Assembly (NCBI GenBank): GCA_029565935.1
Contig: JAKQNF010000004.1
Coordinates: 1-39,821, forward strand
Direction of reading: 5' to 3'
DNA: 39,821 nucleotides
DNA from: Bacillota bacterium
GTDB taxonomy: Bacteria > Bacillota > DTU025 > MWDF01
The notes under the pieces are model-generated. The model saw nothing but the letters and a program-made list of their open reading frames with translations, was not told the DNA's origin and ran no database searches. This document shows, piece by piece, positions 11,781 to 35,918 of this stretch; position 1 is the first letter of the stretch; each line of letters starts with the position of its first letter. The position numbers were made by a program, and so were the translations under genes.

Positions 11781-12745
11781 GGCAGCAGCTCGTTTGTGAA
11801 GAACTTGTCGGGATCCTGGCCCGTCTTCGCCAGATCGTGCCCGCACATCCATTCGTAGAGCGACCTCCACGTCGACTGTTTCTGTATACCCCACTTGGAG
11901 GCGTCTTCGATGTACCTCGGAGAAAGCCACGCTTGGCTTTCCATCGCAAGCTTCTGGTTAATCTCGGGTGAGCGCTTGATCAGGATGTTCGCCGATTCGA
12001 CGGGGTTGGCGGCCGCGTAGGTGTATCCTCTCGAAGTCGCGTTTATGAAAGCCCTCGCCGTCGCCTTGTTTGTCTCCAGGTATTTCCTCGAAGTGATGAT
12101 GATGGGGGTGTAGTAGTCCGGGATGCCCGGTACGTCCCTAAGCATGACGGTGGAAAGCTCGATACCCCTTTGTTTGGCCTCGATGCCCTGCCAGCCCATG
12201 TAGATCCAGGCTATGTCGACGTCGCGGCCGAGCATGGCAAGCAGGTCGGCAGTGCCGATGACAAGCTCCTTTAGCTTGGAGGGATCTCCGCCGTCGGATC
12301 TGACCACGTCGGATATCATGGCCTTCTCCAGGGGAAGTCCCCAGCTGGCGAACGTCTTGCCTTGGAAGTCTTTGGGGCTTTTGATGCCGGACTTCTTAAG
12401 GAAAGCATAGGCGGAAGTATTATGCTGGATCACGGCCGCCACAGATACTATAGGTAGGCCCTCCGCCATCGCCGCCGTGGCCCATTCTTGGAAACTAATC
12501 CCGAAATCCACTTTACCGGACGCGACCAGCTGCTCTATCGAAAGGGCCTGGCTCTGCTCCATTATCTCCACGTCGAGCCCAGAGTCCTTGTAATAGCCTT
12601 TGTCCAGCGCCACGAAAAGCCCTGTATGGTTTGTATTCGGCACCCAGTCCAGCATTATCGCGACTTTCGTCGCCGATTCCGCAGCGGGGGCCGCGATAGA
12701 AAGTAAGATCAGCGCCAGCGCCGACAGAATCCAAATCCTTCTCAT
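11777..12745 (-). CDS. thiY: Substrate-binding protein for a thiamine precursor (ThiY/NMT1-like)
   Basis: The protein has 322 residues. ATG 12745 has GGGAGG upstream and overlaps the permease stop (ATGA). Residues 1-24 form a signal peptide. The mature protein opens with LDWVPNTNHTGLFVALDKGYY, the diagnostic start of the NMT1/THI5-like periplasmic binding proteins, and continues with the LVASGKVDFGISFQEW region. Proteins of this type bind formyl-aminopyrimidine or HMP, or other nitrogen heterocycles. The TPP riboswitch upstream makes a pyrimidine precursor of thiamine the likely ligand. The position between permease and ATPase genes completes a standard importer. Confidence 0.9.
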   Translation of the reverse strand: MRRIWILSALALILLSIAAPAAESATKVAIMLDWVPNTNHTGLFVALDKGYYKDSGLDVEIMEQSQALSIEQLVASGKVDFGISFQEWATAAMAEGLPIVSVAAVIQHNTSAYAFLKKSGIKSPKDFQGKTFASWGLPLEKAMISDVVRSDGGDPSKLKELVIGTADLLAMLGRDVDIAWIYMGWQGIEAKQRGIELSTVMLRDVPGIPDYYTPIIITSRKYLETNKATARAFINATSRGYTYAAANPVESANILIKRSPEINQKLAMESQAWLSPRYIEDASKWGIQKQSTWRSLYEWMCGHDLAKTGQDPDKFFTNELLP

Positions 12746-13521
12746 TTCTCTACCTCCCAAATATCCGTCTCTACGCGGTAGTACCATGGGGCGGCCTTCC
12801 TCGCCAGGAAGTTGACCCCGGAGAATATCGCCATACTAAGTCCCGCTATCACGAAAAGCACTGCGAAGACCCTGTCGGTCAGGAAGGAATGCGATGATCT
12901 TGTAAGGTAGACTCCCAAACCTTTTTGGGAACCCATCCACTCTGATACAACGGTCGCGATTATCGCATAGGTCGCGGACACCCTGATGCCGGTGAAGATG
13001 GAGGGCAATGAAGCGGGCCACCTGACCTTCCAGAACAAGCGCCAGCTCTTCGCCCCCATGCTCTTCGCAAGGTCGATGAGCTCCGGATCCGCGGACGACA
13101 GCCCGTCGACGACGCCAACGCAGATGGGGAAGAAGCATGCCAGCACCACAAGGAGCACCTTAGGCAGCATCCCGAAGCCGAACCACAGCACCAACAGCGG
13201 CGCTACGACGATCGTCGGCAGGCTCTGTGACGCTACCAGCAAAGGATACAGGGTCGATCTGAGGAACCTGGACGTGAAGACCGTTATCCCGAGAATCATC
13301 CCTGCCAGCGTAGACGCCGCCATGCCTATGAGCGCGGCCCATAGCGTCGCGAGCGTATGGCCGGCGAGCAGGGGAAGCGTCTCCCAGAATGCGGAGAACA
13401 CGGCCGTAGGGGACGGGAAGAGCCACTTGGGCACGTCGAACGTCCTCGTAATGCCCTCGATGATCGCCAGCACGAAAGCGGCGAGCAAGATGGGCCTTAG
13501 AACCCTCATCCACCTACGCAC
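12742..13521 (-). CDS. thiX: ABC transporter permease for thiamine precursor uptake (ThiX-like)
   Basis: The protein has 259 residues. The start is probably GTG 13521, which overlaps the upstream stop (GTGCGTAG); ATG 13509 is an alternative but has its SD too close. About six transmembrane helices are visible. The EAA loop, which docks the ATPase, is the ELIDLAKSMGAKSWRLFWKV region, followed by PASLPSIFTGIRVS. This is the BPD_transp_1 type used by nitrate, sulfonate and HMP importers. The gene is translationally coupled at both ends to its operon neighbours. Confidence 0.92.
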   Translation of the reverse strand: MRRWMRVLRPILLAAFVLAIIEGITRTFDVPKWLFPSPTAVFSAFWETLPLLAGHTLATLWAALIGMAASTLAGMILGITVFTSRFLRSTLYPLLVASQSLPTIVVAPLLVLWFGFGMLPKVLLVVLACFFPICVGVVDGLSSADPELIDLAKSMGAKSWRLFWKVRWPASLPSIFTGIRVSATYAIIATVVSEWMGSQKGLGVYLTRSSHSFLTDRVFAVLFVIAGLSMAIFSGVNFLARKAAPWYYRVETDIWEVEK

Positions 13522-13853: not shown

Positions 13854-13864
13854 AAACATCCATC

Positions 13865-13953
13865 ACTGGCACTACCTACGCCGGTATTAACCGGATCAGG
13901 TGATGACGGGTCGGCGGCATGAAGCCGCCCTCTCAGCTTGCGCTCCCCGGGCC
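13865..13953 (-). ncRNA. TPP riboswitch (THI element)
   Basis: The minus strand carries all the conserved parts in order: GGGGAGC, the core GCTGAGAGGG, a variable GGCGGC/GCCGCC stem, GACCC, then ACCTGATCCGGTTAATACC and GGCGTAGG. The pyrimidine-sensing GCTGAGA and the diphosphate-side CCTGATCCGG elements are intact. It sits between a strong promoter (13968-13996) and a terminator (13821-13853), so high TPP should stop transcription of the uptake operon. Confidence 0.97.
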
Positions 13954-13967
13954 TTATATTTTTCTAC

Positions 13968-31909: not shown

Positions 31910-33286
31910 TCACAATCCGATTATCATCCTCGCTGTCGAGAAATAGATAATCAGGCCCAGCGCGTCCACTATCGTCGTGATCAGCGGCCCGGCTATTACC
32001 GCCGGATCAAGGTTAAGGTGCATTGCGATTATGGGCAGGCCTGCACCCGCGACCGAACCGATCATCACTGTAAACAGCATGGAGATGCCGATCGTAATGC
32101 CCATATGCAGCCAATTGACGCCGGCGTGCGGGATCAGGAAGGACAACACAATCCCCGCCAGACCGGTAACCAGACCCAGAAGGAGCCCTATGCGCGTCTC
32201 TTTCCAAATCACCTTAAGGCCGTCCTTGAGATGTACTTCCTTGAGCGCCAGGGACCTGATCATTATCGCCGACGATTGCGACCCCGCATTGCCTCCGCAG
32301 CCTATAAGAAGAGGGATGAAGAATGTCAGGGAGACCACGGCCTCCAGGGATTCTTCGAAACCTTTCATTATGAAACCGCTGGATAGATCAGCCAAAAACA
32401 GGATCGCCAGCCATATGACCCTGTTGAACCAGTGTTTAGTCGTCCTGGTGGACATATATGTCTCGTCCGAGGACAGGGTGCCTGCCATTTTCTGTATGTC
32501 CTCGGTGGCTTCCTCGTCAACTACGTGAAGGATATCGTCGGCAGTGATTATGCCCGTAAGCTTGTCGTGTTCATCCACGACGGGAAGGGCCGAGAAACCG
32601 TACTTCTTGAAGAGCTGTGCCGCCTCTTCCTGGTCGCTGCCAACTCCTACTTTTACTACCTTCCTGTGCATTATCTCGCTGACTTTCAGCATCGGATTCG
32701 CGACGACGATATCCCTCAGCGAGAGCACGCCCACGAGCCTTTCATCCGCATCCACCACGTAGATATCATTCAAGGTCTGGGCTTCCCTTCCGGTGCGCCT
32801 GATGAAATCGAGCGCGTAGTCCACCTTCATGTTCGGGGTAAGGGCCACGTACTCGGTCCCCATTATGCCGCCGGAGCTGTCGTCCTCATAGCTGAGCAGT
32901 TCCTTAAACTCCTGTGCTTCTTCCCTGCCCATTTTCTTGAGGATGTCCTCTGTCTGCTCCTCATCCAGCTCCGAAAGCAAGTCCGTGGCATCGTCCGATT
33001 CCATCGCGCCTATGATGCCTGAAGCTTTCGCCGTGCCTATCTCCGTGACCAGTTCGGTCTGGTCCTCGGTGTCCAGCTCCTCCACAATATCTGCAGCAAG
33101 TTCGCTGGGCAGAAGGCGTATGAGGGACCTTTTATCTTCATCGGAAAGGAGTGAATATGCCTCTGCTAGGTCGGCAGGGTGCTGCTGACCGGCATAGTCC
33201 GCAAGTCCCGCAGAGTCGCCCGCCGACAGGAGGGCCTTGATGTCATCTAGCATCTTCTCTAGTCTCACCCTGGTCTCTTCGTCCAT
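31910..33286 (-). CDS. mgtE: MgtE magnesium transporter (downstream copy)
   Basis: The protein has 458 residues from ATG 33286 with AAAGGAGGG upstream. Parts in order: an N-terminal helical domain with repeats (ELAADIVEELDTEDQTELV, DDATDLLSELDEEQ), a CBS pair (about 140-265, VVDADERLVGVLSLRDIV and VVDEHDKLTGIITADDIL), a plug helix, and a C-terminal membrane domain of about five helices with GCGGNAGSQSSAIMIRSLAL and the ion-pathway TTIVDALG. MgtE is a Mg2+ channel closed by Mg2+ bound to its cytoplasmic domains. It lies 14 bases after its paralogue and shares its leader-controlled transcript. Confidence 0.95.
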   Translation of the reverse strand: MDEETRVRLEKMLDDIKALLSAGDSAGLADYAGQQHPADLAEAYSLLSDEDKRSLIRLLPSELAADIVEELDTEDQTELVTEIGTAKASGIIGAMESDDATDLLSELDEEQTEDILKKMGREEAQEFKELLSYEDDSSGGIMGTEYVALTPNMKVDYALDFIRRTGREAQTLNDIYVVDADERLVGVLSLRDIVVANPMLKVSEIMHRKVVKVGVGSDQEEAAQLFKKYGFSALPVVDEHDKLTGIITADDILHVVDEEATEDIQKMAGTLSSDETYMSTRTTKHWFNRVIWLAILFLADLSSGFIMKGFEESLEAVVSLTFFIPLLIGCGGNAGSQSSAIMIRSLALKEVHLKDGLKVIWKETRIGLLLGLVTGLAGIVLSFLIPHAGVNWLHMGITIGISMLFTVMIGSVAGAGLPIIAMHLNLDPAVIAGPLITTIVDALGLIIYFSTARMIIGL

Positions 33287-33300
33287 GACAAACCCTCCTT

Positions 33301-34680
33301 TCAGATACCTAGCACCGACTTGGCTATGTAGAAATAGATCAAGAGCCCGGCAGAGTCGACTATCGTGGTGACTACCGGCCCGGAAAGCACTGCGGGGTCG
33401 AACCCTACCAAGTGGGCCGCTAGTGGAAGCAAAGAACCTATTACCGATCCGAACAGCACCACGAGCAGCGTGGAAAGGCCCACTATGGTACCGGACTGAG
33501 ACCATAAGAGCTGCTCGGAAGGCATGATCGAAGCTGCTGCGAAACCCATCAACCCGATGCTTATGCCAAGCATCAAGCTAACCTTGGTCTCCTTCCAGAT
33601 GACCTTCAGATAATCCGAGAGGTCGAACTCCCTCAACGCGAGCGCCCTGATGATTATCGCAGATGCCTGGGAACCCGCATTGCCTCCTTCGTCTATTAGC
33701 ATCGGTACGAAGAATATCAGAGTGACGAACTGCCCCAGGATCGCCTCGTTGCTGCGCATTATGCTGCTGGTGAAAGCACCAGTGATGAACAGGGCCAAAA
33801 GCCATACGACTCGTTTCGACCACAGTTCCACTATACCGGAGGCAAGGTATGTGTCCTCGAGAGGCAGCGTCGCAGACATCTTGTGTATGTCCTCAGTAGT
33901 CTCATCCTCAAGGACGTGGATTATATCGTTGGAGGAGATTATGCCGGTCAGCCTGTTTTCATCGTCAACGACGGGAAGGGACAGGAAACCATACTTTTTG
34001 AATATGTACGCCGCCTCTTCCTGGTCGCTGTCCACTTTCACGGACATAACGTTACTGCTCATGATGTCCGCGATCTTGTCGGTCGTGTTAGCCATAACCA
34101 GGTCTCTTAATGAAAGGACGCCTTTTAGGTGCCGCTCATCGTCCACTACGTATACGTAGTAGGCCTTGTCGGAATCGGGGCAGATGACCCTCAGCTCATC
34201 GAATGCACGAGTGACGTCCCAGTTCTCGTTCAGGGCGACGTATTCGGAGGCCATGATGCCGCCAGAGGAATCCTCCTCGTACTTCAACAGGTCCTTGACC
34301 GCTTCGGCATCTTCTTCCATGTTGGAAAGTATGCTCTCGGCTTCGTCCTTATTCAGCTCGAGAAGGAGGTCGGCCGCGTCGTCGGAGTCCATCTCCGAGA
34401 CGATGTCGGCCGTCTTCTCTATACCGAGAACACCGAAAAGCTCGACCTGCAAAGGTATGTCGAGCTCTTGGAATATGTCAGCGGTCAGCTCGCTTGGCAA
34501 CAGTGTAAGGAGCCTTCTGCATTCCTCTTCCGACAACGACTTCAAGGCCTCGGCGATATCAGCTGGCAAAGCCCCCGAGGCCAGTTCCTTGTACGCGCGA
34601 TATGAAGGGTTGTCCAGGAAATTCCTTACAAGCGATAGAGCATCCCCGTTCCTTGGCAGGTTCCTCTGCTCTAACGGCAT
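33301..34680 (-). CDS. mgtE: MgtE magnesium transporter (upstream copy)
   Basis: The protein has 459 residues; AAGGGGGT precedes ATG 34680. It has the same architecture as the following gene: N-domain with ELTADIFQELDIPLQ, CBS pair (VVDDERHLKGVLSLRDLV, VVDDENRLTGIISSNDII), and a membrane domain with DEGGNAGSQASAIIIRALAL and TTIVDSAG. The two proteins are clearly paralogues but differ throughout, so this is an old duplication; they might form mixed dimers. A 150-base leader with a candidate leader peptide and switching helices precedes the gene. Confidence 0.95.
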   Translation of the reverse strand: MPLEQRNLPRNGDALSLVRNFLDNPSYRAYKELASGALPADIAEALKSLSEEECRRLLTLLPSELTADIFQELDIPLQVELFGVLGIEKTADIVSEMDSDDAADLLLELNKDEAESILSNMEEDAEAVKDLLKYEEDSSGGIMASEYVALNENWDVTRAFDELRVICPDSDKAYYVYVVDDERHLKGVLSLRDLVMANTTDKIADIMSSNVMSVKVDSDQEEAAYIFKKYGFLSLPVVDDENRLTGIISSNDIIHVLEDETTEDIHKMSATLPLEDTYLASGIVELWSKRVVWLLALFITGAFTSSIMRSNEAILGQFVTLIFFVPMLIDEGGNAGSQASAIIIRALALREFDLSDYLKVIWKETKVSLMLGISIGLMGFAAASIMPSEQLLWSQSGTIVGLSTLLVVLFGSVIGSLLPLAAHLVGFDPAVLSGPVVTTIVDSAGLLIYFYIAKSVLGI

Positions 34681-34830
34681 GGGCGCACCCCCTTACCAGG
34701 GCGCATCAGGAGGCGTGAAGCAAAGAGCCTGGATGAGCGCCCTTAAGATATTGATAACCCGTAGAAAAATCGTCGTTACCTCGACTTCCAGGGTCCGATT
34801 CCAAGACGCTCACCTCCTCATTTTAAAAGC
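34681..34830 (-). promoter_or_regulatory. mgtE leader with mutually exclusive stems
   Basis: One GGGCGC (34742-34737) can pair with either of two GCGCCC copies: 34704-34699, before the SD, or 34686-34681, between the SD (34694-34687) and the ATG. The second pairing would hide the ribosome site. The first copy lies where a ribosome ending the leader ORF (stop 34706) would sit. It does not match the M-box riboswitch consensus that I know. Confidence 0.5.
34706..34804 (-). CDS. Candidate leader peptide of the mgtE operon (32 aa, MgtL-like start)
   Basis: A TTG start at 34804 has AGGAGG exactly eight bases upstream, and the frame is open for 32 codons to a TGA 25 bases before mgtE. The peptide begins MESDPGSRGNDDF and ends GSLLHAS. 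The enterobacterial Mg2+-sensing leader MgtL, as I recall, starts MEPDP, where acidic and proline residues make ribosomes fall off at low Mg2+. The similarity is short and could be chance, but the position before Mg2+ transporter genes is the same. Translation is supported by the SD; function is inferred. Confidence 0.5.
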   Translation of the reverse strand: MESDPGSRGNDDFSTGYQYLKGAHPGSLLHAS

Positions 34831-34836
34831 AGTCAT

Positions 34837-34865
34837 ATTATACACCAGTCTTGGCGTTATGCGAA
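34837..34865 (-). promoter_or_regulatory. Promoter of the mgtE operon
   Basis: TTCGCA (34865-34860), a 17-base spacer and a perfect TATAAT (34842-34837) on the minus strand; start near 34830. Confidence 0.65.
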
Positions 34866-34932: not shown

Positions 34933-34964
34933 TCTACTTGATGACTATGCATGGAGGTGCTTCG

Positions 34965-35918
34965 ATGGACCAGTTGGCAAGGTCGGCGATGATAGCGGTG
35001 AGGGATTGCATGGGCGCCAAGGCAGGCGAGAGTGTGCTTGTGATCACGGATGATGCGAAGAAGGACATCGGTGAGGCCATCTACGAGGCGGCCAGGCAGA
35101 TGGGATGCGATCCGATGCTTCTTGTCATGCCACCGAGGCTAAGGAACGGCCAGGAGCCGCCGAAAGCCGTTGCGGAGGCGATGAAGGGCGCCGATGTGGT
35201 GCTGTGCCCTACATCCAGGTCCCTTTCGCATACGGACGCAAGGCATGAGGCCTGCAAGAACGGCGCGAGGATCGCCACGCTGCCGGGCATAACAGCGGAA
35301 TGCATGGCAAGGACTTTAGGGGCAGACTATTCGCTGATCAAATCGAGGACGGAGAAGCTCGTCGAGGCGTTCAAGGGCGTAAAGAGTGTCAGGATCACGA
35401 CGGCCGCCGGTACCGACATAACGATGTCGGTGGAAGGAAGGACATTCGGCCCGGACACTGGCATACTGACTTCGAAGGGGGATTTCGGCAATCTGCCTGC
35501 GGGAGAAGCCTATGTGGCCCCGATCGAGGGAACGTCCAGCGGTGTAGTGGTCGTAGACGGCGCCATGGCGGGTTACGGTGTGGCGTCCGTACCGATCGTC
35601 ATGGAAGTAAAGGACGGTTTTGCGGTGAAACTCTCCGGTCCTGAGGACATAGATAGGCTAAACAAGCTTATTGATCCTCTGGGTATGCCGGCGAGGAACA
35701 TCGCGGAGCTCGGTATAGGTACCAACGACAAGGCGATCATAACGGGGCTTGTGCTGGAAGACGAGAAGGTGATGGGGACGATCCACGTCGCCATAGGGGA
35801 TAATTCCCACTTCGGCGGGAATGTCGCGGTACCCAGCCACCTTGATGGCATAGTAAAGTCACCTACGATATGGGCTGACGGCCGCCAGATTATGAAGGAC
35901 GGGAAGCTGTTGATATAG
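34965..35918 (+). CDS. M29-like aminopeptidase family protein
   Basis: The protein has 317 residues from ATG 34965 (GGAGGTG upstream). The N-terminal half looks like a Rossmann-type domain (ESVLVITDDAKKDIGEAIYE); the C-terminal half carries the probable metal ligands of the M29/leucyl aminopeptidase-like group: APIEGTSSGVVVVDG, ELGIGTNDKA, GTIHVAIGDNSHFGG and SHLDGIV. Related proteins include metal-dependent aminopeptidases and the ring-cleaving NicX group, so peptidase activity is likely but not certain. It is shorter than classical M29 enzymes (about 400 residues). It would be cytoplasmic and is 33 bases before dnaE. Confidence 0.8.
   Translation: MDQLARSAMIAVRDCMGAKAGESVLVITDDAKKDIGEAIYEAARQMGCDPMLLVMPPRLRNGQEPPKAVAEAMKGADVVLCPTSRSLSHTDARHEACKNGARIATLPGITAECMARTLGADYSLIKSRTEKLVEAFKGVKSVRITTAAGTDITMSVEGRTFGPDTGILTSKGDFGNLPAGEAYVAPIEGTSSGVVVVDGAMAGYGVASVPIVMEVKDGFAVKLSGPEDIDRLNKLIDPLGMPARNIAELGIGTNDKAIITGLVLEDEKVMGTIHVAIGDNSHFGGNVAVPSHLDGIVKSPTIWADGRQIMKDGKLLI

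Follow-up and report, generated by a model that had tools for sequence, protein, structure and literature searches.

The window analysed here is the whole stretch of 39,821 nucleotides, which makes up contig C33 of a 1.8-Mb genome (98% complete). Its minus strand carries two mgtE genes in tandem, likely forming one operon, and ahead of them a sigma-70-type promoter and a short leader open reading frame (ORF) (Table 1). The promoter, the strong Shine-Dalgarno (SD) sequence and the TTG-started ORF of 32 codons were each located where a sequence-only reading of this DNA had described them. In relatives, TATAAT likewise lies upstream of the leader ORF, the majority have a TGACA-like -35 element, and the leader SD is AGGAGG or AGGGGGG at an equivalent position.

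Table 1. Features of the mgtE leader and operon, with window coordinates
Feature	Position	Strand	Remarks
Promoter, TTCGCA - 17 nt - TATAAT	34837..34865	-	sigma-70-type; 10/12 consensus matches
-35 element, TTCGCA	34865-34860	-	17-nt spacer to the -10 element
-10 element, TATAAT	34842-34837	-	
Leader SD, AGGAGG	34813..34818	-	eight bases before the TTG at 34804
Segment A, GGTGAGCGTCTT	34803..34814	-	leader ribosome-binding site and start; pairs with B
Leader ORF, MESDPGSRGNDDFSTGYQYLKGAHPGSLLHAS	34706..34804	-	TTG start, 32 aa, TGA stop; orthologues in 9 other genomes
Segment B, AGGGCGCTCATC	34732..34743	-	late in the ORF; includes GGGCGC (34742-34737); pairs with A or C
Segment C, TGCGCCCT	34698..34705	-	anti-SD just past the leader stop; ON when paired with B, OFF when paired with D
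First GCGCCC	34704-34699	-	
Segment D, AAGGGGGTGCG	34684..34694	-	mgtE SD; pairs with C
Second GCGCCC	34686-34681	-	abuts the mgtE ATG at 34680
mgtE1	33301..34680	-	459 aa; MgtE_N, CBS and MgtE domains (Pfam); ATG at 34680
mgtE2	31910..33286	-	49% identical to mgtE1; probable ATG at 33286, 14 nt past the mgtE1 stop, placed from the N-terminal domain

Two further features of the neighbourhood were recorded. A divergent gene for an M29-type peptidase (34938-35918) adjoins the mgtE leader, and in the upstream flanks of loci L028 and L029, that of L028 seems by eye to encode the same M29-type peptidase, which suggests conserved synteny. Elsewhere in the window, a TPP riboswitch (13855-13959, minus strand; 54.8 bits against a cut-off of 54.3) precedes a gene (12742-13521) for an ABC transporter permease.

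The leader peptide and its conservation

The leader ORF of the window opens with MESDPGSRGNDD and ends at the stop codon 34708-34706. In a class sample of 12 genomes, mgtE is present in nine (that of the window and eight others), and a leader ORF precedes mgtE in all eight of the order's other genomes whose locus is complete; a ninth additional orthologue comes from a locus cut at a contig end. The relatives' leaders begin GTG GAC GGN GAC YCN GGN, giving the consensus start MDGD[PS]G[SN] (MDGDPGS, MDGDSGS or MDGDSGN), where the window has MESDPGS. Because the relatives' GTG falls opposite the window's TTG in the alignment, the start codon chosen in the sequence-only reading is right, and a GTG three codons upstream that overlaps the SD is not needed. 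That reading had also singled out the early acidic residues and the proline. The acidic residues at positions 2 and 4 are retained (E2 and D4 in the window, Asp at both positions in every relative of the order), but proline at position 5 interchanges with serine or glycine. Codon 2 appears as GAC, GAT, GAA and GAG, the length of the leader ranges from 29 to 42 aa, and the sequence past the N-terminus varies. Over codons 2-7 in the order, synonymous differences amount to 0.53 per site and non-synonymous differences to 0.09, a dN/dS-like ratio of 0.17 (0.09 within family f51). By this measure, strong purifying selection is acting on these codons, and sequence comparison supports the leader as a real, translated-looking and conserved peptide ORF with early acidic residues before mgtE.

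No mgtE was detectable in two genomes of the window's genus (89% and 77% complete); thus, the closest relatives fall outside the leader comparison. Within the class, CorA is limited to the window's genus (G000, G001 and G002), and two sister species, both with incomplete genomes, have CorA and no detectable MgtE. A DNA search in the window's genus or family returned no match, and a strict regular expression found no MDxDP-like leader in relatives L006-L021. When one mismatch was allowed, a DNA pattern of the leader matched 218 of 398 genomes and was too noisy to use, and exact pattern matches in G337 and G287 were rejected as leaders because they lie within longer open frames.

Alternative pairings and ribosome position

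The free minimum-energy folds of the leaders generally combine two helices, A:B and C:D. The sequences that make up A:B vary among genomes, with pairing retained: GGTGAGCGTCTT/AGGGCGCTCATC in the window, TCGGTGGACGG/CCGTCCGCCGG in G011, ATCAGTGGACGGTG/CGCCGTCCGCTGGT in G004 and ACACTGGTGGA/TCCGCCAGTGT in G008. Similarly, C:D is ACCTCCT/AGGAGGT in G011 and of the GCGCCCC/GGGGTGT type in the others, both sides changing in concert. The competing helix B:C is of the GGGCGC/GCGCCC type in all genomes but G011, where the longest match is 5 bp (AGGGG/CTCCT). In all nine genomes, segment C lies at, or no more than 18 nt from, the leader stop.

The effect of translation was modelled by placing the P-site of a ribosome at a chosen codon, deleting the RNA that this ribosome would cover and folding the remainder, a thermodynamic treatment that ignores co-transcriptional kinetics. 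The opening energy of the SD alone was dropped as a read-out in favour of the pairing of C, because GGGGG finds other partners. Without a ribosome, C:D pairing is at least 0.86 in seven of the nine genomes (1.00 in the window) and is not firmly held in G005 and G010. With an early ribosome (codons 1-9), C:D in the window drops to 0.01-0.28. Averaged over ribosomes on codons 3-9, the prediction is upstream pairing of C, with B as its main partner; this is clear for six of the nine genomes (G005 and G009, 0.98; window, 0.87; G010, 0.86; G003, 0.77; G004, 0.67) and weak for three (G011, 0.25; G008, 0.20; G007, 0.16). Once the ribosome is past about codon 20, B is covered and C:D mostly returns (0.5-1.0 in the window). 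The behaviour expected of an ermC-type attenuator, with an SD masked in the absence of a ribosome and freed by an early one, is therefore predicted for nine genomes, clearly for the window's and five others and weakly for the remaining three.

These values were compared with 200 controls in which the leader codons were permuted from codon 9 on, keeping the peptide composition, the start region, C and D. The nine-genome switch index was 0.53, against 0.01 after permutation (sd 0.085, maximum 0.37), and none of the 200 permutations reached it (z 6.1). C-upstream pairing was 0.64 against 0.13 (z 6.3), with a narrower margin (shuffled maximum 0.63), and A:B pairing was 0.73 against 0.36 in codon permutations. 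For the window alone, the switch index of 0.92 was matched by five of 200 permutations, and its A:B pairing is not exceptional, being reached by 47 of 200; the single sequence is therefore suggestive, and the nine-genome set carries the case. Folding thus predicts mutually exclusive pairings that overlap the leader ORF at levels above the codon-permuted controls, with an ON state when a ribosome is on the first codons and an OFF state when there is no ribosome or when one lies over B.

Acidic leaders elsewhere in the phylum

The comparison was extended to 101 mgtE upstream regions from elsewhere in the phylum, outside the order. Acidic leaders, taken as SD-preceded short ORFs starting M[DE].?[DE], occur in 37 of the 101 regions on the sense strand vs none of the 101 on the antisense strand. 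Counted per ORF, the figures are 38/271 and 0/84, although the antisense control is rough, being a smaller set with unmatched SD content. Whole families have their own versions of the leader, such as MDADPGSS (f51), MDADSSNGT (f23), MESDGYP (f58) and MDGDG (f21). In f58 (L073, L074, L085 and L103), the MESDGYP.. leader is followed by an intrinsic-terminator hairpin; upon folding with an early ribosome, the terminator gives way to upstream pairing in two of the four regions (L074 and L085), L103 has no closed state in the absence of a ribosome, being paired upstream already, and L073 stays terminated. In f51 (L114, L127, L128 and L148), a conserved terminator hairpin follows the MDADPGS.. leader, and equilibrium folding showed no switching of this terminator with ribosome position. 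These arrangements suggest a transcription-attenuation version of the leader in both families. A 6S RNA gene adjoins mgtE in several of the phylum's genomes (L082, L101, L102, L104, L113 and L119).

A gene-blind scan of 398 genomes for SD-N10-TGGAYGNNGAYCCNNG matched 16, made up of 11 mgtE leaders, three corA-type leaders, G184, where the match lies inside a long open frame, and G075; the reversed pattern gave three matches. As the pattern was drawn from known mgtE leaders, the link to mgtE is partly built in, and the corA matches are independent. At the G075 locus (L232), an SD and a 63-codon ORF starting MDADPGPQ.. have no recognised Mg2+ transporter nearby, and by eye the downstream frame resembles an ABC-type permease.

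The corA genes had been chosen as a negative control, yet in other families they too are preceded by acidic leaders (upstream regions L196, L201, L197, L222-L224, L203, L214 and L218). Examples are MDGDPSKQ (G115), MDGDPGSS (G041), MDGDPRPD (f25: G076, G335 and G375) and MDDP (G025, G045, G070 and G108). Pfam identified the protein as CorA in G076, G041, G115 and the MDDP genomes, and G335 and G375 were assigned through their near-identical sequences. The corA of the window itself lacks an acidic leader. Eight corA leaders, picked for having an acidic ORF, were folded, G070 lying outside the evaluation. The early-ON profile was seen in G045, G040 and G108, partly in G115, and was absent in G041, G025 and G039; the G045 leader shows all four pairing segments.

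Probable magnesium sensing and other readings

The leader probably works as a translational attenuator that gates mgtE, with its acidic peptide serving as the Mg2+ sensor. The computations yield a conserved coding ORF, alternative pairings that depend on ribosome position, and a recurring link to Mg2+ transporter genes. The role of Mg2+ as the signal is inferred from these target genes and from precedents for mgtQ, MgtL and early acidic residues; for example, early acidic repeats stall or eject Escherichia coli ribosomes (PMC11282234). By analogy with enterobacterial MgtL and MgtQ, the Met-Asp/Glu-x-Asp start probably makes ribosomes falter at low Mg2+, the acidic residues slowing or ejecting the ribosome and Mg2+ setting how often. 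In the proposed sequence of events, an untranslated leader would adopt the A:B plus C:D fold, masking the mgtE SD and keeping mgtE off. Ribosomes that start the leader would then encounter Asp or Glu as the second and fourth residues. When Mg2+ is low, pausing or drop-off at E2-D4, together with newly arriving ribosomes, would keep A occupied and B free, so that B could pair with C, release D and permit translation of mgtE. With sufficient Mg2+, the ribosome would proceed over B, C would be freed to pair with D, and mgtE would be off again. The Mg2+ logic of the sequence-only reading is rated plausible.

A real attenuator of the ermC or trp kind might respond to another signal, such as the supply of amino acids or tRNA, an antibiotic, the status of EF-P/ABC-F or translation stress in general, given that the 1-2-3-4 architecture is generic and that the conserved leader N-terminus includes Gly, Pro and Ser too. 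This seems unlikely, because the downstream genes are repeatedly Mg2+ transporters from two unrelated families (mgtE and corA), because it is positions 2 and 4 that are acidic while residue 5 varies, and because the leader lacks the single-codon run typical of amino-acid attenuators. Translational coupling, in which ribosomes ending the leader open C:D or reinitiate and leader translation turns mgtE on, would suit the spacing of 3-28 nt between leader stop and mgtE SD in each of the nine genomes. It looks distinctly improbable in that it has no need of the A:B and B:C alternatives, which nevertheless exceed their codon-permuted controls, and in that several other families of the phylum have 100-250 nt between the leader stop and mgtE.

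The sequence-only reading had proposed a different switch, in which the ON state joins GGGCGC to the first GCGCCC and the OFF state joins it to the second, the first copy then being covered by a ribosome at the stop codon. Its idea of mutually exclusive pairings survives, as does the pairing of GGGCGC with the first copy (B:C), and it overlooked segment A, whose pairing with B makes this a four-segment attenuator. The window does contain both copies; however, the second is missing in all eight relatives, C:D already stands at 1.00 in the no-ribosome ensemble of the window, and B itself is covered by ribosomes that have passed about codon 20. The exact switch thus has very little chance of being correct, and the predicted OFF state is the C:D hairpin that masks the mgtE SD.

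The M-box (RF00380) is an RNA aptamer that binds Mg2+ directly and controls mgtE in Bacillota, and it was found by the same scan before 13 of the 101 other mgtE genes of the phylum; even so, direct control here by a metal-binding riboswitch, the M-box or a relative, is scarcely credible, since the window leader gave no Rfam match, M-box included, at gathering thresholds and up to E 10 only a 14-nt Glutamine-II fragment, its conservation follows a coding pattern, and its relatives have pairing segments of different sequence. The sequence-only reading had likewise held that this is not an M-box. Among the 13 M-box regions, at least two (L084 and L150) also have an acidic ORF between the M-box and mgtE (MDADPDD.. 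at about position 1359 of L084; MESEEGD.. in L150), and at these loci a pair of Mg2+ sensors may work in series. PMC11109978 describes an "mgtE motif"; this riboswitch candidate, confined to Thioalkalivibrio, was set aside as different.

Taken as Mg2+-sensing attenuation, the reading favoured above, the system probably belongs with Salmonella mgtQ and MgtL in type, with no recognisable homology to mgtQ and, by eye, none to MgtL past the first residues. Like these, it combines a short, conserved putative ORF before a Mg2+ transporter gene, early acidic residues and predicted exclusive structures. In ermC-type attenuators, a ribosome held early makes segment 2 available to segment 3 and thereby uncovers the SD of segment 4; an early ribosome is predicted to free a downstream SD here as well, although the ermC signal is a stalling drug acting through a different arrest motif. 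Mg2+-linked control of mgtE is shared with the M-box, which differs in being a direct ion-binding aptamer and is absent at the window. The nearest described device is Salmonella mgtQ, an 8-aa leader in the mgtC-mgtB intergenic region, before the P-type ATPase gene mgtB, that requires Asp2 and Glu5, switches between 1:2/3:4 and 2:3 layouts and raises mgtB translation, loss of its start codon lowering translation of the transporter (PMC8092293). The two have in common a short ORF with a strong SD, Asp2 (E2 in the window) with a second early acidic residue, and 1:2 plus 3:4 vs 2:3 pairings, predicted in the present case, in which 3:4 masks the ribosome-binding site of a Mg2+ transporter. In contrast, the present leader is 29-42 aa long, stands at the start of an operon before the channel gene mgtE in a distant phylum and has no recognisable homology to mgtQ, and other families of the phylum have a terminator instead of a masked SD, or corA downstream.

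For MgtL of mgtA, ribosome destabilisation at early acidic and Pro residues allows expression of the transporter at low Mg2+ (Chadani 2017 and Gall 2016, as summarised in PMC11282234 and PMC11552253). As far as those summaries go, the likeness lies in the N-terminal MExDP-type motif and the proposed destabilisation early in the leader, and the difference in the output, Rho-dependent transcription termination for MgtL and SD masking here. By eye, the longer peptide of the window resembles MgtL in its first residues only, and the common M-E-x-D-P start is too short to decide homology; the label "MgtL-like" therefore holds for the way of working and not for descent detectable beyond those residues. 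CorL, in which translation of a uORF upstream of enterobacterial corA is Mg2+-responsive and inverse to corA expression (PMC11552253), is Rho-dependent with few acidic or Pro residues, whereas the corA leaders found here start MDxD. No leader peptide linked to mgtE regulation was found in the open-access papers searched.

The original finding holds up and extends further than first claimed. On balance, the data favour a phylum-wide class of Mg2+ sensor in Bacillota-type bacteria in which M[DE]x[DE] nascent chains gate MgtE or CorA through translational or terminator-based attenuation, a class that would largely replace the M-box and have a separate origin from, or be much older than, enterobacterial MgtL, MgtQ and CorL. 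Mg2+ control of mgtE in Firmicutes is the textbook province of the M-box RNA. If the class is real, a peptide sensor known only from enterobacteria would recur in another phylum before two unrelated importers, and its signatures (an SD with an MDxD ORF, and four pairing segments) would help to annotate orphan leaders. Whether the ribosome acts as a general Mg2+ sensor would become testable in several bacteria by simple reporters, and the stability of ribosomes on acidic N-termini would be a general bacterial magnesium gauge.
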